A DNA stretch of 33,076 bases from Bacteroidales bacterium (GTDB lineage Bacteria > Bacteroidota > Bacteroidia > Bacteroidales > F082): contig JAFSJF010000119.1 in the NCBI GenBank assembly GCA_017439405.1, positions 1 to 33,076 on the forward strand, given 5' to 3'. Both the position numbers and the translations under genes were made by a program. Under the pieces are notes generated by a model. The model had not been told where the DNA came from and ran no database searches. It worked only from the letters and a program-made list of their open reading frames with translations. The first letter of the stretch is position 1. Each line of letters starts with the position of its first letter. This document shows positions 166 to 8,789 of this stretch, piece by piece.

Positions 166-1008
166 CTAAAATGGATTCTCCATATCCATCTCTGGAAAAG
201 GTATTAAACCGTCTACTTCTTCCATATAAGGGATAGGATGAGATGGAAAAACATCAAAGGTAAATTCATCCTCGCCATTTCTAAGTCTTTCAGCTTTGTC
301 ATGCATTCCAGCCTTTTCGTACCATTCAGCAGCAGTGGCAAGATCTTTCTTGACACCTATTCCCTTTTGGTAGCAAAACCCGAGCTCCTCCATAGCTTCT
401 TTATGGCCTCTCTCTGCAGCCCTCTTGTACCACAAAAACGACTTTCTGTAACTACGCTTACCCAAGCTTTTGTCACTAAAACACTCTCCAAGACGGTACA
501 TCGCTACCTCTTCACCCCGCTTCGCCAGTTTTTCATACCATTTCATTGCTTCGCGGTGCATTTCTCTTTTCCGGTTATCCCAGTAGTAACATTGACACAT
601 CGACGCCAATTCCCACTGCATATCTATGTAGCCGCATTCAGCCAAAGTCTTCAGATATTCCAAAGCCTTGTCTTCATCTTTTTCCACCCCCAAACCTACA
701 TTGTATGCGACAAACAACCAATAGGTAGCATCTTGGTTGCCTTCCTCGAAAGCTGGTTGGAGCACCTTGTCGATGATGCGCTGCAAGCGTTTCTGGACTT
801 TTATGGATAACGGACGGTTAAACTGATTATAGCGATGTAGGTATTGAAGGGTCTCATCATCGGTATGCGGCCAATTCGAATTCCAGCAGTCATACAAGAA
901 TTGGATACCAGCCTCAAGTGCCGTATGGGGCTCTGCATTCGGATCACTAGGGTGATAGACAAGGGTGAAATTGCCCTCGGGGGTGATGTTGGGGTTGTTT
1001 GTTTCCAT
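166..1008 (-). CDS. Sel1-repeat protein
   Basis: A 280-residue protein if it starts at the METNNPN methionine; an in-frame start 27 bases upstream is possible, but the chosen ATG matches the METN start of the next gene. The middle and C-terminal part holds about four Sel1-like repeats, for example a GVEKDEDKALEYLKT unit, an EAMKWYEKLAKRGEE unit, a SFLWYKRAAERGHKEAM unit and a GVKKDLATAAEWYEKAG unit. Sel1 repeats form alpha-solenoid scaffolds for protein-protein contacts. No signal peptide is visible. It follows the E1-like/microprotein genes on the same strand after 72 bases, and a TATTTTTG box in that gap (minus strand) could give it its own promoter. I infer an adaptor or substrate-recognition role in the ubiquitin-like module; the sequence does not prove it. 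Confidence 0.85.
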   Translation of the reverse strand: METNNPNITPEGNFTLVYHPSDPNAEPHTALEAGIQFLYDCWNSNWPHTDDETLQYLHRYNQFNRPLSIKVQKRLQRIIDKVLQPAFEEGNQDATYWLFVAYNVGLGVEKDEDKALEYLKTLAECGYIDMQWELASMCQCYYWDNRKREMHREAMKWYEKLAKRGEEVAMYRLGECFSDKSLGKRSYRKSFLWYKRAAERGHKEAMEELGFCYQKGIGVKKDLATAAEWYEKAGMHDKAERLRNGEDEFTFDVFPSHPIPYMEEVDGLIPFPEMDMENPF

Positions 1009-1080: not shown

Positions 1081-1212
1081 TCACGCAAACAATGACATGA
1101 TCAAACTGATGACAGCAATCACGCCACACACTATGGCAGCAATAGTGAAGCAGCCTGGGCCATCGCCTCCGCCAGAACCATCAAATTCTCCAGTTCTTGA
1201 ATTATAATTCAT
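1081..1212 (-). CDS. 43-aa single-pass membrane microprotein
   Basis: A 43-codon frame whose ATG overlaps the TGA stop of the E1-like gene (ATGA, 4-base overlap), which argues that it is translated by coupling. The product has a short polar N-terminus with the motif NSRTGEFDG, a Gly-rich linker (SGGGDGPG), then one hydrophobic helix of about 23 residues (CFTIAAIVCGVIAVISLIMS) reaching almost to the C-terminus. I do not recognise a family. The TGEF motif recurs in the 58-aa product encoded on the other side of the E1 gene. Likely a membrane-anchored component, tether or substrate of the E1/E2/JAB module (inference). Confidence 0.65.
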   Translation of the reverse strand: MNYNSRTGEFDGSGGGDGPGCFTIAAIVCGVIAVISLIMSLFA

Positions 1213-2402
1213 TCTAAATTGTCTCCTATATCTAAAAGAATTTCATCATCTGAGCAAATCGCACAACCTTCACGCCTGCTAATGTGGGCTCCATACCAGC
1301 GCATAATGGTAGGCATCGGACCTGCTCCTGGCAAAACATGCCAATTGGTGAACTTACGTTCCCGCCTGTTCGCCCAAAGATAGTAATTGTAAACAAGCTC
1401 ATCTTCCAAACAAGAGATACCAGATGCTTCACCTTTTGACAGTTCCACCAAAGCCAGCTTGACCATCATATTACAGATAGGCTCAATATCGGCAGAAAGT
1501 CCCACCTGAACCATCGCGTCAGCATCCTGGGCCGAAACGTAGGCGGGAATCACGCCGTTTTGCCGCGCCGAAGCTTCGTTGGTAATTTCCTCCTGAGCGA
1601 CACCAATGTTTCCTACCATGCAGCTGTAGCACGCTTGACCTGGGCGATAAACGAACACGTCGCCACCCTCGGCACGAGTAAAAGCCCTACCGAAGATGCC
1701 GATCTTCTGGAAATCGAACAGTGCCTGCGACAAGACAAAACGGCTCGGATTGTTGTCCGTGGCACAAATTACCAAATCAACATGGCTGACGATTGTCTCA
1801 AGTTCCATACGGTTTTTGCTAATGTCCAATGGATATTTGTGTATCTTTGCGTACGGGTTTTTCCCAAGTACCGCCTCCTCGATGGCATCCGTTTTCAGCC
1901 GTCCCAAATCCTTGATGAAACATGTGTGACGAGCCAAATTGTGTAATTCTACCCGGTCAAAATCCACAAAAGAGAATTCCCCTACTCCAGACTTCGACAA
2001 TTCAATGGCAATTTGGGATCCAAAACTGCCCAACCCAATGATGGCAACATGCTTGTTCTGCAAAACTCCAACCTCCAGAATCCCTTTGCTTCGGGAATAA
2101 AGGTTCTCTTTAGAAGGAATCATCTGAAAACCAACATATTGAATCCCACCATCAACCCTTAAGCCAACCTTAATGCAACCCTCATCGATGAAGACAAGCC
2201 AACGGACATCTTCAACGACATCAGTACAGAAGGCTGACTTCGAGAACTTACATCCCGAAATCTGACCAAAAGCATGAGTTAAAGGCTGGGTATGGAGATG
2301 CACAACTCCCTCTCCCTCCCATTCGTAGGCATACCCAACTAAAACATCCTCTTTGCTTTGGTCAAACGCATCCAACTCCTTTTGGGAAAGATAGACAATC
2401 AT
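1209..2402 (-). CDS. E1-like adenylating enzyme (ThiF/MoeB superfamily)
   Basis: A 397-residue protein. Residues 1-110 form a beta-rich N-terminal region I do not recognise. Residues from about 117 are a Rossmann-type ThiF/E1 adenylation domain: nucleotide loop GLGSFG at 123-128, acidic VDFDRVELHNLARH segment (D147, D149, R158), K170 and ATDN at 215-218. Two CxxC pairs (C258/C261 and C380/C383) probably bind zinc, as in MoeB and eukaryotic E1s. The family activates the C-terminus of a ubiquitin-like protein or peptide with ATP; MccB of microcin C7 is a relative acting on a short peptide. The start codon overlaps the stop of the 58-aa gene upstream (ATGA), and its own stop overlaps the next microprotein. 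With the E2-like and JAB genes it forms a full conjugation/deconjugation set. Which cysteine, if any, forms a thioester cannot be told by eye. Confidence 0.9.
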   Translation of the reverse strand: MIVYLSQKELDAFDQSKEDVLVGYAYEWEGEGVVHLHTQPLTHAFGQISGCKFSKSAFCTDVVEDVRWLVFIDEGCIKVGLRVDGGIQYVGFQMIPSKENLYSRSKGILEVGVLQNKHVAIIGLGSFGSQIAIELSKSGVGEFSFVDFDRVELHNLARHTCFIKDLGRLKTDAIEEAVLGKNPYAKIHKYPLDISKNRMELETIVSHVDLVICATDNNPSRFVLSQALFDFQKIGIFGRAFTRAEGGDVFVYRPGQACYSCMVGNIGVAQEEITNEASARQNGVIPAYVSAQDADAMVQVGLSADIEPICNMMVKLALVELSKGEASGISCLEDELVYNYYLWANRRERKFTNWHVLPGAGPMPTIMRWYGAHISRREGCAICSDDEILLDIGDNLE

Positions 2403-2575
2403 GCGAATCCGTCTTTAGTCATATCGGTTACAACCTCACCTGCGCCGTTGGTTATGCCCCAAGGAGCCTCTTCAAACTCACCTGTTGTGGGATTGAAAAC
2501 CAAATCCGTTATGGTGTTTCCGTTTTGGGTGTCCTTGACGACCTCGGCAATTTTGTTTACTTTTTCTTCGTTCAT
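2399..2575 (-). CDS. 58-aa microprotein between E2-like and E1-like genes
   Basis: A 58-codon frame starting 12 bases after the E2-like gene and ending in an ATGA overlap with the E1-like start, so it is part of the operon and probably translationally coupled. The product is acidic and polar (starts MNEEKVNKIAEVVKD), contains the motif NPTTGEFEEAPWG and ends in MTKDGFA. There is no signal peptide, membrane segment, C-terminal Gly-Gly or cysteine. It is too short for a standard beta-grasp domain. Its position makes it the leading candidate for a small substrate or modifier, or a cofactor of the E1; this is inference. The TGEF motif is shared with the 43-aa membrane microprotein. Confidence 0.65.
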   Translation of the reverse strand: MNEEKVNKIAEVVKDTQNGNTITDLVFNPTTGEFEEAPWGITNGAGEVVTDMTKDGFA

Positions 2576-2587
2576 AAGCTATTATGT

Positions 2588-3016
2588 TTAGTCTTGATGT
2601 TTCAAATAATAACCAATAGGCTCGCCTGTGCTCAAATGTGCCTCATACATTTCAAGCCACAGACGACACTTGATATAAACTTTATATAGGGAAACCCTAT
2701 TGGTCCATGAGGAAGTCCCATAATGGCAAATCTGGGTACACCCATTTTCGCTATTTAATGTATGCATAGAAGAACTAGGGGTGTCGAGTGGGTTGAGGTT
2801 ACAATCATATAACATTTTGGTTACAAACACCTTGGGAATATTCTCGGGAAACATATCCAACTCAATTTTCAAGGTATAGATATTTCCTCTGTTGGTACGG
2901 GCTGCCATTACCAGATAAGGCTTTGCCGTATTCATATCCATGAAACGATAAATGTTTGATGGTAGTTTCTCCTCCAACACTTTAATTTCAGCTTGATATC
3001 TGCTGTATTTCATCAT
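2588..3016 (-). CDS. E2 (UBC)-like conjugating protein
   Basis: A 142-residue protein whose start overlaps the JAB stop (ATGA). I call it E2-like because the core aligns by eye with ubiquitin-conjugating enzymes: strands ending in the MFPENIP element (position of the YPxxPP motif), then H85-x2-N88, the presumed active cysteine C97 in QIC97HYG, W104-T, and a helix beginning VSLYKV (108-113), as in the HPN...ICL...W...SLxxVL pattern of E2s. E2 proteins accept a ubiquitin-like protein from E1 as a thioester on this Cys. No membrane segment is present. It sits between the isopeptidase and the 58-aa gene. Remote homology judged only by pattern; the alternative is a non-catalytic UBC fold. Confidence 0.72.
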   Translation of the reverse strand: MMKYSRYQAEIKVLEEKLPSNIYRFMDMNTAKPYLVMAARTNRGNIYTLKIELDMFPENIPKVFVTKMLYDCNLNPLDTPSSSMHTLNSENGCTQICHYGTSSWTNRVSLYKVYIKCRLWLEMYEAHLSTGEPIGYYLKHQD

Positions 3017-3918
3017 AATCTATGTAGTTTATAGTATTCAATAAATGATTGTTCGGTTTCTCCTTCAATAGGTTGCCAGCCCAATCCAGATGCGCATAAG
3101 CCTTCTGTTTCATAGGTAATCAGAGGAGAACGTTCGGGGAATCCCATTGGGAACAGAATATCAGTTGTTTTCGCTTCTTCTTCGTTTTTTACAAGGATAT
3201 GAATGAGGTGGTTTTCGTCAAGTGAAACAATGCACTCCATTTCCTTATGCTGTTCTTGAACAAAATCAAGCATCTTTTTTAGCACCTTGTTATTGCTCTT
3301 CTCGTTCATCCAATAGCCTTCGGGATATTGTTGTTTCGCCACATGTACGACCGTAGATTTGTATTTCATCCCTACCAGCGCAGGAGTTTTGGTATAAGGA
3401 TGCCTCAGCATCCTTTTCAAGCGCCGGTCGATCATCCTTCGAAAAGGGCTTTCCATAGGCAGCACTTCCCATTGGGATTCTTGATAACGTGGCGTGCTTT
3501 CGATGAAATTAAAGGCATTGACAGTCGATGTCGTGTTGGTGCAGTTCCCTATACAAAGCAAGAACCACCGCAAGTGATGGCGGAGCATGTTTTCGTATAT
3601 CGTGCGGGCATCATGGCCACTGGGGTGCGCCAAGCCCAACTGATGATGGGAATGCCACTCGCCGATATGTTGTAGTCCAAATTCATGAACGAGGATTCCG
3701 CCCACTGTTTCAAGATAGTCAAGGTCTTGATTGAAGAAAGTGGGCTGATGATTGGCGTTGTCGCCTGGACCAATGGCATACAACACCACTGGGACACCAG
3801 CCGAAGTCCAATAGCCGAACAGCTGTCCGCCAGTCTCGATATGCGGATAGTCCAAAATACACCGTGAGAGATAGTCCAATTCGCTTTGATAGACAAGAAC
3901 CGTGTCGGCAGGCTTCAT
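3013..3918 (-). CDS. JAB/JAMM metalloprotease (deconjugase-like)
   Basis: I chose the ATG at 3918 (301 aa); the longer frame begins at a TTG and would overlap the gene before it. Residues about 1-130 are a JAB/MPN domain: E28 in IETGGQLFG, then H89-S-H91 in GEWHSHHQ, S100 and D103 in PSGHD. These are the zinc ligands and catalytic residues of JAMM isopeptidases, with one extra residue (x8 rather than the classical x7) between H91 and S100. The C-terminal half of about 150 residues has a beta pattern ending in ILFPMGFPERSPLITYE that recalls a UBC/RWD-like fold without the Cys motif (inference). Expected role: cleaving the modifier from targets, or maturing the modifier. It ends in an ATGA overlap with the E2-like gene. 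Confidence 0.88.
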   Translation of the reverse strand: MKPADTVLVYQSELDYLSRCILDYPHIETGGQLFGYWTSAGVPVVLYAIGPGDNANHQPTFFNQDLDYLETVGGILVHEFGLQHIGEWHSHHQLGLAHPSGHDARTIYENMLRHHLRWFLLCIGNCTNTTSTVNAFNFIESTPRYQESQWEVLPMESPFRRMIDRRLKRMLRHPYTKTPALVGMKYKSTVVHVAKQQYPEGYWMNEKSNNKVLKKMLDFVQEQHKEMECIVSLDENHLIHILVKNEEEAKTTDILFPMGFPERSPLITYETEGLCASGLGWQPIEGETEQSFIEYYKLHRL

Positions 3919-3931
3919 GATGCGTATGTTT

Positions 3932-4216
3932 TTATCTTTGGTGAGCAATGATGATTTGTCGCATTTGTATGGCCTCTGACCTCAAGAAGCCATGTATCGA
4001 AATTTGATTCCCGAAGGCATAAAATGATATGGTGGAGAAGCCGATGATGGGCGTTTCGATATGCACCGATGAGATACAACTATACGGAATGTAGGTCGAT
4101 TTGCCGCTGTAAATGAAGGGGCAACGAACCGTCACGCCGTTGTCATCGAAAATGATGGTCGGTGGAAACAGGACATTGCCTTCTGAGATTCGGGATGCGG
4201 TGAAAGTTTTGTGCAT
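3932..4216 (-). CDS. Small PH-domain-like protein
   Basis: A 94-residue protein starting directly after the TGA stop of the amidohydrolase (no intergenic base) and ending 13 bases before the JAB start. It is nearly all beta strand with a C-terminal helix (RSEAIQMRQIIIAHQR). The pattern FDDNGVTVRCPF, then STYIPYSCISSVHIETP, then FSTISFYAFGNQISI resembles bacterial PH-like domains, in which a seven-strand barrel is capped by one helix. No signal or membrane segment. A possible binding or docking module for the conjugation enzymes. Fold assignment is by pattern only. Confidence 0.6.
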   Translation of the reverse strand: MHKTFTASRISEGNVLFPPTIIFDDNGVTVRCPFIYSGKSTYIPYSCISSVHIETPIIGFSTISFYAFGNQISIHGFLRSEAIQMRQIIIAHQR

Positions 4217-4963
4217 TCAGCCAAATAGTTTTTTAAAGTTCTTGTGGGTAATCAATTCAAAATCTTCTTGACTTATTGAATCCTTCAACTTTTGTACAAG
4301 GTCGAGGTAATATATTTTCATGTCCGTATCCAGATAATAGTATTTAGGTATTGGATAATCCGTACCCCAAAGCACATGATTAGACAATTTCTCATCACAG
4401 AGTTTTACGATATTTTCAGTTGGCATAAAGGCCGTATCGCACCAAACATTTGGATATTTCTTCATCAATTCGAGGGTTTCATTAATCGGGCGTCCGTGCG
4501 CCAGTATGAAAACCACATTGGGGAAATCTGAAATAGGCTTTTCGTATAGTTTAGGATTACAACCTTCTTTCTCTCCCGTATGGATGAGCAATGGCATTTG
4601 CAAAACACTTGCCATTGACACCACCCATTTCATTTCGTGCGAATCATTTATCCAAGTCGTAGGATGCAATTGTGGATGTATTTTCAGACAACGCCAACGA
4701 ATACCCGAATCCATGAATTTATCCAATCCGCCATCTTTCAACATGGGTTGAGTAATCCACAGCACAGGCAAAAACCGACTGCCACAAATATCGGCTAACT
4801 CTTTCGTCTCGGCAATGACTTTATCATAATCACTTTCGCAAATCGTTGTGGACGAAGCCGCAAAACGCTCCACTCCCACGGAATCAAGAAAACGTTTCAA
4901 TTCCGTGGGAGAAGTGTAAAGGTCATAAAATTGGCCGAAATGAATATGGGAATCAAACAGCAT
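4217..4963 (-). CDS. Amidohydrolase-family (amidohydro_2-like) TIM-barrel hydrolase
   Basis: A 248-residue protein with the ordered metal-site signatures of the amidohydrolase superfamily: DSHIHFG at the N-terminus (H6, H8), LKIHPQLH (K94, H96), LLIHTG (H128), ILAHGRP (H156) and WGTDYPIP (D202). The length is near that of compact amidohydro_2 members. Substrate unknown; the family includes decarboxylases and hydrolases of small acids and amides. It starts 7 bases after the radical SAM gene and abuts the PH-like gene, so it belongs to the same transcript. I infer a tailoring or trimming step on the peptide product. Confidence 0.85.
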   Translation of the reverse strand: MLFDSHIHFGQFYDLYTSPTELKRFLDSVGVERFAASSTTICESDYDKVIAETKELADICGSRFLPVLWITQPMLKDGGLDKFMDSGIRWRCLKIHPQLHPTTWINDSHEMKWVVSMASVLQMPLLIHTGEKEGCNPKLYEKPISDFPNVVFILAHGRPINETLELMKKYPNVWCDTAFMPTENIVKLCDEKLSNHVLWGTDYPIPKYYYLDTDMKIYYLDLVQKLKDSISQEDFELITHKNFKKLFG

Positions 4964-4970
4964 TGCGGTG

Positions 4971-6461
4971 TTACTTCAAAAGTCCTTTTGAACGATATTC
5001 TTCTATCAATCTCTTGTTAAGGAAAGCAACCTTGCAAAAATGCTCGTTGATTTTGAACATATCACCGCCGCTTTCGTTGTAGTTGCGCACCAAGCAGCGA
5101 GCGCAATAGTCACGCGCTTCGCACTCCAAACACTGGGGGAACGAGGCTTGCGTTATCTTGCGCAATTCTTTCACCCTTGGGCTTTGTTCCCATATCTCTT
5201 TCAACGACTGCTTATACACATTGCCCAACACGTAGTTTTGCCATCCTGCACACGGATATACATCGCCATTGGCAGTAATGCAACAATTGTCGTAGCCCAC
5301 ACCACACACGGGTTGCTTCTTGTAGCGTTCCAAATCGAAAGCGATAAAGTCGCTTACGGGAGGCTTCTCTTCCACCATTTTTTTATAATCAATGTCGTGT
5401 TCAATGATGTCGCGAAGCAATTCCTCCGTCTCCTCAATGGAAATGCGGTTGGCAAGGTTGTTGGTGTCGAAGTCTGCTTGAGCCATCATAATATAGTCTG
5501 TCTGTGCCTTTATCTTCAAGCCTTTTGCATATTCCAACACTTCAGCATAACCTTTACGGTTGGCCTTCATAATGGGGCAGGAAATCTGCACAGGAATGTC
5601 GTTTTTCACCAGCAGTTCAATAGCCGCTTTTGTCTTGGCATGTGAGCCTGGCACAGTAGTGATAAAGTCATGAATTGCAGGATCCATTGAGTACAACGAA
5701 GTCTGAATTAATGACAAGTTTACTTCTTTCAAGGTGGGGATTTGTTCTTCCTTCAGCGAAATAAGGTTGGAAAGGATGGATATTTTCAAGTCCTTCTCAC
5801 GACAGTAGCGACAAATCTCCATCAAGTCTTTGTGCAGAAACGCCTCGCCGCCAGAGAGGGTGACATGCAGACCTCCCATATCGGCAAACTCGTCAAGGAT
5901 GCTTTTCACTTTCTCCAAAGGCATGTCGAAGCCTTTGTTCTTCTTGCCATTGGGAATGTAGCAGTGAATGCAACGCTCGTTGCAACGGCTGCTCAACTCA
6001 AACTGCAAGTTGGAAATAAGTGGCCTTCCTTGTATTTCTTCAAGAAAGAAATCTTGTGTGTTTTCGCTTACCTTCTCCTTTGTCTCTTGCGTGAAATCCA
6101 CGGCAAAGGTCTTGGGATTGTCCACTGCGTATGTGAAAGACTGGTCGTTGGCATCCAACTCTTCAACCGTTTCGCCTATCACAAGGAAATGGTCAGCGGC
6201 CAAATCGGTGATAAAGCCTATGAAATCTTCCCTTAGCTCATCGCGGTTTGCATTGGCATACACCTGCATCAATCGGTCGACGATGTCTTCCACATTTTGT
6301 GGCTCACGACTGATTTGTTTCAGATAATCAGCACCCGTCTCGTTATATGAACGGTCGTGTCGAGTAAGCTGATTGGTGATATATCCGTATCTGTCCGTAG
6401 TACGGATGTATGCATTTATTGATTGACGGACCTGCATAAGTTTACTACTAAATAAGAACAT
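4971..6461 (-). CDS. Radical SAM/SPASM peptide maturase with PqqD-like N-terminal domain
   Basis: A 496-residue protein. Residues about 15-100 match the PqqD-like RiPP recognition element by pattern (YGYITNQLTRHDRSYNETGADYL, then EDIVDRLMQVYAN and GFITDLAAD). The radical SAM cluster motif is C160-x3-C164-x2-C167 (CNERCIHC), followed by the glycine-rich GGLHVTLSGGE element. The C-terminal SPASM region is rich in Cys (CGVGYDNCC, YPCAGW, CLECEARDYCARC, FCKVAF) and probably holds auxiliary 4Fe-4S clusters. Such enzymes install thioether or carbon-carbon links in ribosomal peptides. The start overlaps the end of the 84-aa gene by 46 bases; a later ATG at 6437 is also possible. The precursor candidate lies upstream at 6755-6892. 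Confidence 0.93.
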   Translation of the reverse strand: MFLFSSKLMQVRQSINAYIRTTDRYGYITNQLTRHDRSYNETGADYLKQISREPQNVEDIVDRLMQVYANANRDELREDFIGFITDLAADHFLVIGETVEELDANDQSFTYAVDNPKTFAVDFTQETKEKVSENTQDFFLEEIQGRPLISNLQFELSSRCNERCIHCYIPNGKKNKGFDMPLEKVKSILDEFADMGGLHVTLSGGEAFLHKDLMEICRYCREKDLKISILSNLISLKEEQIPTLKEVNLSLIQTSLYSMDPAIHDFITTVPGSHAKTKAAIELLVKNDIPVQISCPIMKANRKGYAEVLEYAKGLKIKAQTDYIMMAQADFDTNNLANRISIEETEELLRDIIEHDIDYKKMVEEKPPVSDFIAFDLERYKKQPVCGVGYDNCCITANGDVYPCAGWQNYVLGNVYKQSLKEIWEQSPRVKELRKITQASFPQCLECEARDYCARCLVRNYNESGGDMFKINEHFCKVAFLNKRLIEEYRSKGLLK

Positions 6462-6670
6462 TCTATGGTCAACTCGTTTGATTGCCCAACGGCTTCAACG
6501 ACCTTATCTACACTACAATTCACATTAACAACATGTATCGCTTTAACTGCTTTATCTTCTATTATCAGAATGGCCATTTGTTTCATGTGCTCATCGTAAA
6601 CATTTACAGATGCATAAGGATTTAGGGGGAAGTTCCCGTCGAATTGGTTTTGCGAAATCGTGTAACTCAT
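6416..6670 (-). CDS. 84-aa protein between peptide precursor and maturase
   Basis: An 84-codon frame with a purine-rich leader (AAAAGAGAAAAA) before the ATG. It overlaps the maturase start by 46 bases in another frame. The product alternates strands and one helix (ASVNVYDEH, MAILIIEDKAVKAIHVVNV, SVDKVVEAV, LTIECSYLVVN). There is no signal peptide, no Gly-Gly end and only three cysteines. I do not recognise it. It could be a RiPP partner protein, a second substrate or a small beta-grasp-like fold; the sequence alone does not decide. The position between precursor and enzyme suggests it takes part in peptide maturation. Confidence 0.65.
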   Translation of the reverse strand: MSYTISQNQFDGNFPLNPYASVNVYDEHMKQMAILIIEDKAVKAIHVVNVNCSVDKVVEAVGQSNELTIECSYLVVNLCRSVNQ

Positions 6671-6720
6671 TTTTTCTCTTTTGATTAAACTTTACTATTG
6701 GTTTACTTACATTGCTAAAG

Positions 6721-6742
6721 GAGGAAGCCCATGGGCTTCCTC
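6721..6742 (-). terminator. 22-base perfect palindrome after the precursor gene (attenuator-like)
   Basis: The half-site GAGGAAGCCCA is followed at once by its exact reverse complement, so an RNA hairpin with a GC-rich stem can form. It lies 12 bases after the precursor stop and 50 bases before the 84-aa gene. Only a short CTTT tract follows on the minus strand, so partial termination or mRNA stabilisation is more likely than full termination, which would favour precursor over enzyme production. Confidence 0.6.
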
Positions 6743-6754
6743 GCTCTTGCTGAT

Positions 6755-6892
6755 TTACATCGTACGCTCGCAATTAATGCAAGAATACTTGCCCGTGCTA
6801 CCTTGTCCACGTTCTTGCGGAGGGCAACCAGCAGCATAAGAACCAGTAGGAAGGTTCTTTGCAATCATTTCGACTTTCTTAAACTCTTTCAT
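6755..6892 (-). CDS. Putative RiPP precursor peptide, 45 aa
   Basis: An ATG-started frame of 45 codons, the first gene of the radical SAM cluster. The N-terminus MKEFKKVEMIAKNLPTG is charged and helical, as expected for a leader. The C-terminal part has a small-residue segment SYAAGCPP, a flexible Gln/Gly/Ser stretch, and YSCINCERTM. The three cysteines are C23, C38 and C41. Cys-rich cores preceded by a short leader are typical substrates of SPASM maturases with PqqD-like domains. No Gly-Gly cleavage motif is obvious, and no dedicated peptidase/ABC transporter is seen nearby; the JAB protein or amidohydrolase could take part in processing (inference). The family name is not recalled with certainty. 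Confidence 0.75.
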   Translation of the reverse strand: MKEFKKVEMIAKNLPTGSYAAGCPPQERGQGSTGKYSCINCERTM

Positions 6893-6912
6893 TTTGTTAA
6901 GATTTTAAAACT

Positions 6913-6985
6913 TGCCTACTCTTTGAAGGATTTTCGGCATTCTCCTTTTTCTTTTTATTTCTGCCTACTCTAAAAGCTTTTCGGC
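6913..6985. repeat. Two imperfect direct repeats (49-base period) upstream of the precursor
   Basis: TGCCTACTCT occurs at 6913-6922 and 6962-6971, and TTTTCGGC at 6931-6938 and 6978-6985, so a composite element is present twice in the leader/promoter region of the peptide gene. This could be a pair of operator sites or repeated leader elements. No function can be assigned. Confidence 0.55.
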
Positions 6986-7021
6986 TTCCGCTGCATCGTT
7001 CGCGTTGGGGAAGAAGACAAC

Positions 7022-7195
7022 AAAAAAAGCCCGCACCCCAATCCTATCTTGAAGTGAAGGCTCTCGCATGCCCGAAGTAAAGATATGGAAAGCAGTGCGT
7101 GCTTTATGGGCACGCAGCGCACTCTCTTCCGTCTTACTTCGTTCAAATTTGCGAGATTCTCACTTTCAGACAGACGGTATCGCTACCGATAATAA
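7022..7195 (-). ncRNA. Rod-shaped noncoding RNA, 6S-like candidate
   Basis: A good promoter (next entry) would start a transcript near 7195. About 120 bases then fold into one long interrupted rod: 7062-7067 with 7151-7156, 7073-7080 with 7134-7141 (8 perfect pairs), and 7096-7102 with 7110-7116 closing a 7-base loop; an unpaired region of about 5 and 9 bases separates the first two stems. It ends in GGGGTGCGGGC followed by seven T on the minus strand (7028-7022). A rod of 170-200 bases with an internal bubble is the architecture of 6S RNA. The alternative is a structured leader or attenuator of the downstream peptide operon, or a kinase 3' element. No covariance search was possible. Confidence 0.5.
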
Positions 7196-7200
7196 TGCCG

Positions 7201-7228
7201 CAAATATACAAATATTTCGCTTTTGCAA
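7201..7228 (-). promoter_or_regulatory. Promoter for the noncoding RNA / peptide operon
   Basis: On the minus strand TTG (7228-7226), a 17-base spacer and TATATTTG (7208-7201) match the Bacteroidota -33/-7 consensus. Transcription would begin a few bases past 7201 and read the rod-shaped RNA and perhaps the peptide operon. Confidence 0.65.
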
Positions 7229-7328
7229 CAATTCTTGCACATTTTTCCAGCAAAACCACCAGCACTGCTATCCGAGGGCAAAAGTAGAGGTTTTAATAAT
7301 ATAAGGTGTGGTACTTTTCGGTACTTGT

Positions 7329-8699
7329 TTATTTTTCGTGCGGCAGTTTCTCATCAAACAAGTCCCTATTCATTCTGAAATAAAACCGTTGACATTCTAT
7401 TCGCAGCGAATCGGCCTTCCTTGGATTGTCCTGACCAATCCAACCAATGGAAGGTAACTTGTTAGCATATAATCCAGCCAATTTGGAGACTAATTTTTCT
7501 GAAACCATTTTGAAATCCATTTCAAATTGGGCTTGAACAGCCAAATCCATTGGCCTCATCGAATTGTGTAATTCTTCCATTTCCAACGCAAAACGGTCTT
7601 TATAAATCTCTCCATAGTCCCAATATGCGATTTCACCGCTTTTCATCCCATCTTGGATTTCCTTTTCAAACCTGCTATATAAAACCTGATAGGCTTGGTG
7701 TATGGAATCCAAATTCAGCACGCCTACGGGATTGCTAACAACAGGCTTCACTTTGGTTTTTGTGCGACTTTGCATTACAGGATTGGATTGTTCCATCACA
7801 ATCGTATCACGCTGCTCTTTAACAATAACTACCGTGTCGGGAACCGTAACAACTTGTGGAACAGGCTCTATTTGTGCTGGAGCCGAAACCTCTTCAACCA
7901 TTTTCTTTGGCCAACCCAAAACAATCAAAGCCATAGCCAAAGCAACCAAAGCCAGCCATATACCAATCTCACGCCGCCAAATGGCCTTGCCTATTTCCGA
8001 AATTCGATGATATCGTTTTGCAGCCTCCTTTCGTTGACATTTACGAACAACCCAACCATAACGGTTCGGAAACAGCAACTTAATAATAAAGCCCAAGGAA
8101 TAAATGTCGCTCGCAACACTAGTTGTTTCCCGACGGGTCAATTCGGGAGCGGCAAAGGCTTTCGTGCCTCCTGTGGCCTTGTCAAGATGGGAATCGCTGT
8201 CGGCATAGCCGAAGTCTATCAATTTGACATTGCGTCCGTTGCGGGTGATGAGAATATTCCCTGGCTTCAAATCGTTGTGTACAATTTGGTGCTTGTGGAT
8301 ATAAGCCAAAGCGTCAAGCAATTCATTCAGAACACGTTTCTTCTCTTTGTTTGAAGGATTGGTTTTCAGATAGTCGGTCAAAGTCTCGCCGTCCACGTAT
8401 TCCATGACGATACAAGGCCCCACCTTGGCATCTTCTCGCCAGCCAACACACCTTACAACATGCTCATTGCCATACAGTTGTTCAAGAATCCTGTATTCAC
8501 GCCGCAACCTCGCAAGATGCTCCGCCGAAGCTCCCTGCTCCTGGTTCAAGGCCTTCAGAAACAGTTTGCGCTCCCCGCTCAGCACCGTATATAACACACT
8601 ATAGCCCGCCCCTTGGAATGGCATCCGCTGATAATCATGGAATTTGGAAAAACTTTCTTCCATTTCCCCGAACGATCCCGAAGTGAAACTCTCTTCCAT
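7329..8699 (-). CDS. Membrane Ser/Thr protein kinase (Hanks type)
   Basis: A 456-residue protein if translated from the ATG at 8699, which lies 21 bases past a TATTTTTG promoter box. The kinase domain covers about residues 25-240: ATP-site Lys K49 (LFLKAL), catalytic loop IVH141NDLKPGN, DFG at 162-164, and AAPEL. The usual HRD Arg is Asn here (HND), which removes the residue that normally contacts the activation loop. A transmembrane helix (about 244-262) follows, then a Pro/Val linker and an outer domain of about 170 residues with no recognised family. Expected role: phosphorylation in response to an envelope signal. It ends 437 bases before the RiPP-like precursor on the same strand; a link to that cluster is not shown. 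Confidence 0.9.
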   Translation of the reverse strand: MEESFTSGSFGEMEESFSKFHDYQRMPFQGAGYSVLYTVLSGERKLFLKALNQEQGASAEHLARLRREYRILEQLYGNEHVVRCVGWREDAKVGPCIVMEYVDGETLTDYLKTNPSNKEKKRVLNELLDALAYIHKHQIVHNDLKPGNILITRNGRNVKLIDFGYADSDSHLDKATGGTKAFAAPELTRRETTSVASDIYSLGFIIKLLFPNRYGWVVRKCQRKEAAKRYHRISEIGKAIWRREIGIWLALVALAMALIVLGWPKKMVEEVSAPAQIEPVPQVVTVPDTVVIVKEQRDTIVMEQSNPVMQSRTKTKVKPVVSNPVGVLNLDSIHQAYQVLYSRFEKEIQDGMKSGEIAYWDYGEIYKDRFALEMEELHNSMRPMDLAVQAQFEMDFKMVSEKLVSKLAGLYANKLPSIGWIGQDNPRKADSLRIECQRFYFRMNRDLFDEKLPHEK

Positions 8700-8719
8700 T
8701 TTTTGGCGGATAACGGATG

Positions 8720-8748
8720 CAAAAATAGAAAACTCTCTCCACTTCCAA
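8720..8748 (-). promoter_or_regulatory. Kinase promoter
   Basis: On the minus strand TTG (8748-8746), 18 bases, then TATTTTTG (8727-8720), ending 20 bases before the kinase ATG. It lies back to back with the promoter of the plus-strand gene. Confidence 0.6.
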
Positions 8749-8758
8749 CAGATTATCG

Positions 8759-8766
8759 TATTTTTG
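8759..8766 (+). promoter_or_regulatory. -7 box of the divergent gene
   Basis: TATTTTTG fits TAnnTTTG and lies 23 bases before the ATG at 8790. The -33 region is poor, so strength is uncertain. Confidence 0.45.
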
Positions 8767-8789
8767 TCAGTCCAAACCAAACAAGACCC

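Follow-up and report, generated by a model that had tools for sequence, protein, structure and literature searches.

How might a bacterial conjugation operon work that encodes no recognisable ubiquitin-like protein? We considered this question for a Bacteroidales bacterium (genome G000), in a stretch of 33,076 nucleotides (contig JAFSJF010000119.1, positions 1 to 33,076; hereafter, the window) whose minus strand carries genes for an E1-like enzyme, an E2-like protein and a JAB peptidase, preceded by a radical SAM peptide cassette. The best-supported new element of this locus is a family of microproteins, p58, encoded between E2 and E1, which may serve as the tail-type modifier in a split cascade that has no cyclase and resembles Cap2 and Cap3 of type II CBASS (cyclic oligonucleotide-based antiphage signalling system). 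By analogy with that system, we judge a cascade with p58 as its reversible tag to be slightly more probable than improbable. The four genes concerned are the following (L and G numbers denote loci and genomes throughout).

3013 to 3918, minus strand: JAB/JAMM peptidase, its C-terminal half without a known family (PADLOC JAB, E 2.8e-12; start ATG chosen by alignment to L051 and L052)
2588 to 3016, minus strand: E2-like conjugating protein with candidate catalytic Cys97 (PADLOC E2; conserved residues; profile match)
2399 to 2575, minus strand: p58, candidate stand-alone modifier with the end TKDGFA (conserved position; profiles)
1209 to 2402, minus strand: E1/ThiF-like adenylyltransferase (Pfam ThiF, 111.6 bits; PADLOC E1-E2 model PDLC00829, E 2.1e-28)

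The position of p58 is constant. A complete window-type set of JAB, E2 and E1 was found at nine loci (the window, L051, L052, L061, L068, L069, L070, L077 and L087) from several families of the phylum, and each of the nine has a small gene between its E2 and E1 genes. Left out of this count were L067 and L078 (with L072, the same place as L078), in which JAB is cut by the contig end; L062-L066, L071, L081-L086, L090 and L135-L143 are repeats of places already counted. The small gene encodes 58-69 amino acids in eight loci, with two copies in L061, and 160 amino acids in L087 (3219-3701), where it forms a tandem dimer of the p58 unit, each unit with a VKDGFA end. Its plan comprises a short N-terminal part, the motif LxFNPxTGEF in most members, and then the tail; L051 also codes for a 113-residue protein with two p58-type motifs. 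Compared with its counterpart in L051, the window gene differs at 21 synonymous and 6 non-synonymous codons, and compared with that in L052, at 23 and 6. Because synonymous changes far outnumber non-synonymous ones, p58 appears to be under coding constraint. Profiles built with one clade left out recovered p58 in three of four clades, namely the window group (E 8e-7 to 0.009, with 4e-4 for the window), L070/L077 (6e-8 and 1e-8) and L087 (1e-10). The gene occurs at one place in the host genome and, by a profile built from these same sequences, in seven of nine other genomes, at one place each and beside E1. It was not found in G014, where the radical SAM set occurs and the E1 module does not, nor in G186, where JAB lies at a contig end. 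Because p58 is found beside E1 and not in G014, we consider that it goes with the E1 module and not with the radical SAM module. No match to p58 was seen in phages, or to the L087 tandem in plasmids. L087, a distant relative, also carries two adjacent E2-like genes in the region 3676-4595. On a Mesorhizobium plasmid (NZ_CP080523.1; L091:3778-3951), we noted by eye a 57-residue protein ending LGGEY, a possible proteobacterial counterpart of p58, whose gene lies 5′ of genes for E2, a second E2-like protein, E1, a JAB-like protein, a metallo-beta-lactamase (MBL)-like protein and a patatin.

The residues expected of the three enzymes are conserved. In alignments of seven rows, E28, H89, H91 and D103 of JAB and C161, C258, C261, C380 and C383 of E1 are invariant, and H85, C97 and W104 of E2 are invariant in all eight rows aligned. 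ThiF matched above its Pfam cut-off, and Prok-JAB just above (25.1 against 25). The PADLOC models named E1-E2, E2 and JAB, which we take to be CBASS models, are the best matches in that library for the window E1, E2 and JAB (E2 at E 6.5e-6). Against solved structures, the JAB profile found no match and the E2 profile found just weak ones (E 0.016 or worse), to chains of FANCL and RING finger protein 25. The set is rare: window-type JAB has matches in 5 of 393 genomes of the order and, at E 0.001, in 7 of 395 of the class, three of them strong and the host included (the four weak matches, in G774, G177, G644 and G482, were left out of the further analysis). E1 matched at 1e-60 in 3 of 395 genomes of the phylum and 4 of 393 of the order, and E2 patterns were found at three loci of the genome collection, two of which are records of G003 and G111. 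Viral origin was set aside, as the viral collection held no kin of E1 or of the radical SAM enzyme; 14 phage records gave just partial ThiF-type matches, less than 36% identical.

That the set lacks a recognisable Gly-Gly modifier, as the first-pass annotation of this DNA had proposed, held up. No ubiquitin-like family was found for the ten proteins of the operon listed there, in Pfam and NCBIfam at E 1 or in PADLOC (for the maturase and E1, among the best 25 models), nor in Pfam for nine related-locus proteins and the SEL1-repeat protein of the window. A hidden ubiquitin-like gene was thus set aside, none appearing in the Pfam, NCBIfam and PADLOC scans of the ten proteins, among the matches listed.

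What could then be conjugated? Type II CBASS offers a precedent. According to extracts of PMC10097602, the protein conjugated there is a cyclase without resemblance to ubiquitin, linked by the Gly or Ala at its C-terminus, with no di-Gly and no beta-grasp fold; in the case of Bacillus cereus, the cyclase ends KPGGFA, its Ala is linked to PspA by Cap2, and Cap3 frees it (extracts of PMC11153139). The window resembles this system in three ways. First, its E1, E2 and JAB are likewise accompanied by no recognised beta-grasp protein, and the PADLOC E1-E2, E2 and JAB models match them. Second, the candidate tag ends GFA, where the B. cereus cyclase ends GGFA. Third, the feature of a Cap3-like JAMM peptidase is present (E28, H89, H91 and D103; PADLOC JAB). 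It differs in that Cap2 is one E2-E1 protein, whereas E2 and E1 are separate open reading frames here, and in that CBASS requires a cyclase, whereas neither the ten genes nor, at E 0.001, the host genome showed a SMODS domain, the genome search being limited to SMODS. The 58-residue microprotein would stand in for the cyclase, and the window has no recognised CBASS effector.

A further comparison is with a pairing found in Bacteroidota, in which a CBASS-type cyclase has a short E2-like neighbour. SMODS cyclases gathered from 149 genomes of the class occupied 23 places in 14 genomes, of which 22 were examined (G598:C34 was left out). Nine of the cyclases examined have an E2-like neighbour; six of these neighbours align as one family, and three (L124, L126 and L128) were recognised by eye. 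The window E2 profile matches the six, with the Cys aligned (probability 72, E 3.5e-5). Unlike the window, these places have a cyclase, and no E1 or JAB was found within about 6 kb. The tails of the E2-linked cyclases read KGFFG, KPYYAG, KPFG, KPYA, KNFGG, KNYGG or HxFHG, some plus a few residues, and seven of the nine contain KPYY, KGFF, KPFG, KPYA, KNFG or KNYG. Three further cyclases adjoin an E1 match of Cap2 size, two ending SFG and one (L127) SRSAK. Across p58 units, the tails are KDGFA, KDGFF and KPYY, and p58 ends in Ala in the window, L051, L052 and one of the two L061 copies. The pattern K[DPGN][GFY][FYGA], sought in the last 14 residues, occurs in all 11 p58 units (by eye) and in 10 of 497 open reading frames of at least 100 amino acids, seven of which are E2-linked cyclases. 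We also used a pattern-free tail score on 551 tails, with 13 of the 14 named linked cyclases (one was lost to the end-of-contig filter) and nine unlinked ones. The L068 tail gave an area under the curve (AUC) of 0.81 (p 5e-5), and the top two of the 551 tails were the E2-linked cyclases L126 and L128. One L061 copy gave an AUC of 0.64 (nominal p 0.04), and the tails of seven other window proteins, taken as controls, gave 0.28-0.59, none significant. Judged from these comparisons, the case for p58 as a tag is good on position, conservation and tandem form, and suggestive on the tail.

Several observations weigh against this reading. The tail pattern was picked after the tails had been seen, and in the pattern-free test the window p58 tail itself was not significant (AUC 0.56, p 0.24), nor were those of L070, L077 and L087. 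The sole clear positive of that test, L068/L069, is the very clade that a profile built without L068 and L069 did not recover. The encoded C-terminus is neither Gly nor Ala in five of the nine loci (L068, L069, L070, L077 and L087) and in one L061 copy. As for E1, its closest solved structure by sequence is MoeB (E 2e-16), with Cap2 at E 3e-7, and in a tree the window-type E1 group, whose support is modest (81/85), excludes three Bacteroidota Cap2 proteins.

We weighed the alternative that p58 serves E1 or E2 as a fixed small subunit, an adaptor or an inhibitor, and that the protein conjugated is another one (PH94, a cargo product or a host protein). The differences between the p58 C-termini of the clades and the failure of the window tail in the unbiased test fit this alternative, as does the N/DPxTGEF motif common to p58 and p43, a membrane microprotein encoded downstream of E1, which could be a shared binding motif (in a motif scan, YNSRTGEF at the p43 N-terminus resembled FNPTTGEF of p58). 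Within clades, however, the tail end is constant, and the tandem dimer of L087 repeats the tail, like polyubiquitin-type precursors. Moreover, no other small gene was seen in all nine loci, and PH94 was found just in the window, L051 and L052 (a weak L061 match inside a ClpB-like gene was discounted; the search left out L077 and L087). On balance, we hold the subunit or adaptor explanation to be unlikely. Starts of the (N/D)PxTGE(F/I) kind, akin to the p58 core, were observed in the window at 1081-1212 and at L061:6565-6747, L068:6909-7286 and L087:866-1792, and several of these motif-bearing genes near E1 encode membrane proteins. The p58 profile touches the L061 membrane protein weakly (E 0.4 in one scan; 0.02-0.12 in the leave-one-clade-out scans).

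The E1 also matches the structures of MccB (E 2.7e-10) and PaaA (E 9.5e-10), and ThiF-like enzymes of ribosomally synthesised and post-translationally modified peptides (RiPPs) are reviewed in PMC12250964 (extracts). It might accordingly be asked whether this E1 is a RiPP- or microcin-type enzyme (MccB, PaaA or ThiF-like) that modifies the p58 end chemically, with E2 and JAB acting in another step. Such an enzyme would leave the constant presence of E2 and JAB unexplained, and the radical SAM module lies outside the conserved set; we give this explanation a very slim chance.

One locus links the window type to a cyclase. On a Bradyrhizobium plasmid (L079), JAB, E2 and an E1 that is 36% identical to the window E1 over 71% of its length, and that groups with the window type in the tree with modest support (81/85), adjoin a SMODS cyclase, a SAVED nuclease and a TIR protein. 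In this single case, where a cyclase stands near, E1 directly follows E2 with no small gene between. The reading frame of the cyclase (L079:7653-8524) is apparently interrupted. In L077, E1 is followed by PtuA- and PtuB-like genes. A role in defence is plausible for the E1/E2/JAB family; for the window locus it is a proposal, by analogy.

Other bacterial systems resemble the window less closely. Bil (BilABCD), according to extracts of PMC11354881, has E1, E2 and JAB in one operon, as here. Its BilA, however, is ubiquitin-like (beta-grasp), and no such match was obtained among the ten window proteins (Pfam, NCBIfam, E 1); BilB is an E2 with a C-E-H-H motif in the same extracts, and the window E2 lacks that motif, the residues after C97 being HYGTSSWTNRVSL. 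Bub is named as another bacterial ubiquitin-like pathway in extracts of PMC13373217. The 6a operons, described in extracts of PMC1779556 as an E2-E1-JAB triple protein with a metallo-beta-lactamase, combine the same three activities, and L052 has an MBL-like gene upstream of its module (below the Pfam cut-off; PADLOC LmuA, E 1.6e-11). In the window the three are separate proteins, and the NCBIfam 6A-MBL model NF058523 scored 58.5 and 25.4 against 320 bits. The ThiF family of the PRTRC (6d) systems, TIGR03736, scored 17 against 144.75 bits. No microprotein tag of this kind and no such gene combination was described among the literature matches listed, which did not cover the literature on Bub, ubiquitin-like diversity and Cap2.

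On these grounds we propose a mechanism in which p58 replaces the ubiquitin-like protein and serves as a tail on its own, comparable to that at the C-terminus of the type II CBASS cyclase but without the cyclase. We infer each catalytic step, with p58 as the donor, as follows. E1 would adenylate the p58 C-terminus and a thioester would form; p58 would then be handed on to Cys97 of E2, which would attach it to a lysine of a target, and JAB would take it off again. The target may be membrane-linked, given the p58-like motif of the membrane protein p43. In relatives with extra residues past the p58 tail, JAB or another peptidase would trim first.

The remaining genes place this cascade in a larger operon. 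As the first-pass annotation had reported, ten tightly packed genes lie on the minus strand, and an open reading frame check found each of them where it had been placed. Two features missing from that list also belong to the stretch, a SEL1-repeat gene and a 5′ leader. From 6892 to 166, the order is pep45, p84, maturase, amidohydrolase, PH94, JAB, E2, p58, E1, p43 and SEL1, and the features beyond the four given above are as follows.

6893 to 7329, minus strand: 5′ leader with two tandem DUF805b RNA motifs at 6913-6947 and 6962-6994 (Rfam RF02914)
6755 to 6892, minus strand: pep45, 45-residue Cys-containing candidate RiPP precursor (homolog in L011)
6416 to 6670, minus strand: p84, 84-residue protein (open reading frame)
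4971 to 6461, minus strand: PqqD-radical SAM-SPASM peptide maturase (Pfam PF05402, PF04055 and PF13186 above cut-off)
4217 to 4963, minus strand: amidohydrolase, Amidohydro_2 (Pfam PF04909, 54.4 bits; L011 homolog 63% identical)
4207 to 4230, minus strand: module junction (blastn homology breakpoints)
3932 to 4216, minus strand: PH94, 94 residues, weakly PH-like, first gene of the E1 module (bPH_5, E 0.13; 85% identical in L051, 88% in L052)
1081 to 1212, minus strand: p43, membrane microprotein (95% identical in L052, 80% in L051; membrane segment by eye; motif scan)
166 to 1008, minus strand: SEL1-repeat protein, downstream end of the E1 module in the genus (Sel1 repeats in three stretches; 94% identical in L052 and 51% in L051, at the same place)

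Every neighbouring pair overlaps or lies at most 13 bases apart, save pep45-p84 (84 bp) and p43-SEL1 (72). In reading order, p84 overlaps the maturase by 46 bases, the maturase and the amidohydrolase are 7 apart, the amidohydrolase stop touches the PH94 start (0 bases), PH94 and JAB are 13 apart, JAB overlaps E2 by 4, E2 and p58 are 12 apart, and p58-E1 and E1-p43 each overlap by 4. The family calls of the first-pass annotation were sound for PqqD, radical SAM, SPASM, the amidohydrolase (Amidohydro_2 above its Pfam cut-off), ThiF, JAB and E2; the PH-like call drew just a weak match.

Are these genes one system? From homology with related loci, they form two modules of separate history that meet at about 4207-4230. 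DNA homology to L051 ends at 4207, to L052 at 4204 and to L011 at 4230 (blastn), and the longest string common to both sides of the junction is 7-9 bases. The set PH94-JAB-E2-p58-E1-p43-SEL1 recurs in G003 (L051) and G111 (L052), with no match to the maturase in the 20.0 kb and 13.5 kb read there, nor at 1e-40 in the whole genomes of G003 and G111. Conversely, L011 (G014), the closest radical SAM locus, holds homologs of the kinase, radical SAM, pep45, amidohydrolase and SEL1 genes and has no match to E1, E2 or JAB on its 11.8 kb contig. Because the genes 5′ of PH94 vary (an FtsK-type ATPase, a coiled coil, a 106-residue protein and an FtsA-type protein in L051; an MBL-like protein in L052), we regard the E1 module as an exchangeable operon end. 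The arrangement at L051:13105-18580 and L093:584-6308, where E1-type genes have FtsK-type ATPase genes as neighbours, is reminiscent of secretion-type clusters.

Co-conservation of the maturase with E1, E2 and JAB, which the first-pass annotation had suggested as a check, was not borne out. That annotation had named homologous loci with the two parts nearly always apart as evidence against a joint system, and this is largely what we found: the maturase had no match in the stretches read around the eight other complete loci, by tblastn at L051, L052, L061, L068, L069 and L070 (whose contig is just 4.2 kb) and by reading of open reading frames at L077 (9.5 of 14 kb) and L087 (9 of 12 kb). Among 99 genomes of the genus, kin of the radical SAM enzyme (E <=1e-40) occur in nine and close kin of E1 (79-100% identity) in three (G000, G111 and G003), and both together only in the host G000. 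The combination is thus a modular operon, not one conserved system.

Within the window itself, the leader and the zero-base junction suggest that the two modules form one operon, in agreement with the earlier proposal. The leader motifs score 49.0 and 38.2 bits against a gathering threshold of 35.6, and the leader is single copy in the host genome. Its part 6953-7329 is 87.6% identical to L051:18595-18963, just 5′ of the first gene in the E1/E2/JAB operon of G003, and 73% identical to a stretch upstream of the L011 radical SAM gene, a locus without an E1 module; DUF805b motifs also occur in L011 (two) and L051 (one). Because the leader is common to both, the window and L051 share both ends and differ in the middle. 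A strong promoter or terminator between the modules had been the other finding named as evidence against the system. Zero bases leave no room for a terminator, and the Bacteroidota-type promoter pattern matched four times across the window, where 1.07 matches were expected, and never at the junction; as it did not match in the leader either, the scan says little about an internal promoter. The G+C content is 0.42-0.45 across the operon stretch and 0.52 (0.517) at 10700-33076, and because of this lower value the stretch resembles an acquired island.

Could the juxtaposition be an assembly artefact? The host genome is a draft of 159 contigs with 5.21% contamination. At the junction, however, no common string exceeds nine bases, the reading frames are intact on either side, and the G+C content is alike in both modules (0.429 and 0.451, against 0.517 at 10700-33076), and the leader has homology to the radical SAM locus L011 as well as to the E1 locus L051. 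With no repeat at the junction to explain it, misassembly was set aside, and we rate it the least probable of the explanations considered.

The upstream module is a RiPP-type cassette. The maturase carries PqqD, Radical_SAM and SPASM domains, and, like known cassettes of this kind, the window pairs it with a short Cys-containing precursor. As to a named class (sacti-, ranthi- or other), no model among the best 25 of 79 NCBIfam models listed reached its cut-off, and the precursor matched no family. The pep45 homolog in L011 is 57% identical and adjoins the same maturase, and other Cys peptides of about 37-40 residues lie beside related maturases in L012, L013, L088 and L089 (by eye). For p84, no trusted family (Pfam, NCBIfam, PADLOC) and no homolog in L011 were found. 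A protein kinase gene (window 7329-8780) lies near the cassette, with a homolog near 6 of the 10 related radical SAM loci fetched.

The first-pass annotation had proposed that E1 activates the C-terminus of either a radical SAM-modified peptide (pep45 or p84) or a microprotein, for attachment to a target. The second part, in the form of p58, one of its three candidates, is the reading we prefer. For the first part speak the apparent single operon with its zero-base junction, the leader common to the G003 E1 operon, and L053, where E1/E2/JAB again stands with a radical SAM peptide cassette. The two modules nevertheless occur apart, the last residue of pep45 is Met and that of its homolog at the locus without E1 is Gln (neither Gly nor Ala), and the L053 maturase bears just a distant resemblance to that of the window (E 3.9e-7). 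With the modules separable and the tails unfit, pep45 and p84 were set aside as E1 substrates, a role that we find very improbable. In the mechanism with p58 as tag, two exchangeable modules would share one operon behind the DUF805b leader; the upstream cassette would make a modified peptide that is operon cargo and not the tag, and the downstream module would be a reversible protein-conjugation cascade.

Observations in the genus nevertheless speak against a clean split between the modules: radical SAM peptide genes adjoin two of the five E1/E2/JAB loci viewed (the window, L051, L052, L053 and L054). Because the maturases are distant, the pairing in the window and L053 looks like repeated cargo use, or the chance of an accessory island. 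L053:7601-14500 (G064:C92) encodes on one strand an E2-like protein, JAB, E1, two membrane proteins, a radical SAM/SPASM protein, a peptide ending CASGCGICGYGSN (read by eye) and a B12-type radical SAM protein; its JAB, E1 and first radical SAM gene match those of the window (tblastn), and the rest was read by eye. Its E2-like protein has two N-terminal tandem repeats of about 47 residues, which end in PGKLA. L054:7023-13631 (G064:C59) encodes an E2-like protein with similar N-terminal tandem repeats, a JAB with a long repeat-bearing extension, E1 and several membrane proteins, with no radical SAM gene seen in that interval. The p58 profile did not match the E2-fused tandem repeats of L053 and L054, which by eye have a helix-strand-tail look in common with p58.

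We speculate further, and tentatively, that p58 represents a new class of modifier: a free-standing, non-beta-grasp protein of about 58 residues, made in one relative as a tandem precursor, whose tail derives from, or is the source of, CD-NTase tails, served by a split Cap2-like cascade that follows various cargo modules (radical SAM peptide, FtsK-type, MBL-like) as the exchangeable end of an operon, with cargo products or p43 as targets. In this full form we think the idea somewhat unlikely. If p58 is a tag, ubiquitin-like conjugation would need no ubiquitin fold and no cyclase body, just a short tail. The tail chemistry of CBASS would then be linked to stand-alone tagging, the four proteins would offer a minimal system for E1-E2-JAB biochemistry, and the locus would show how such cascades pass between operons.

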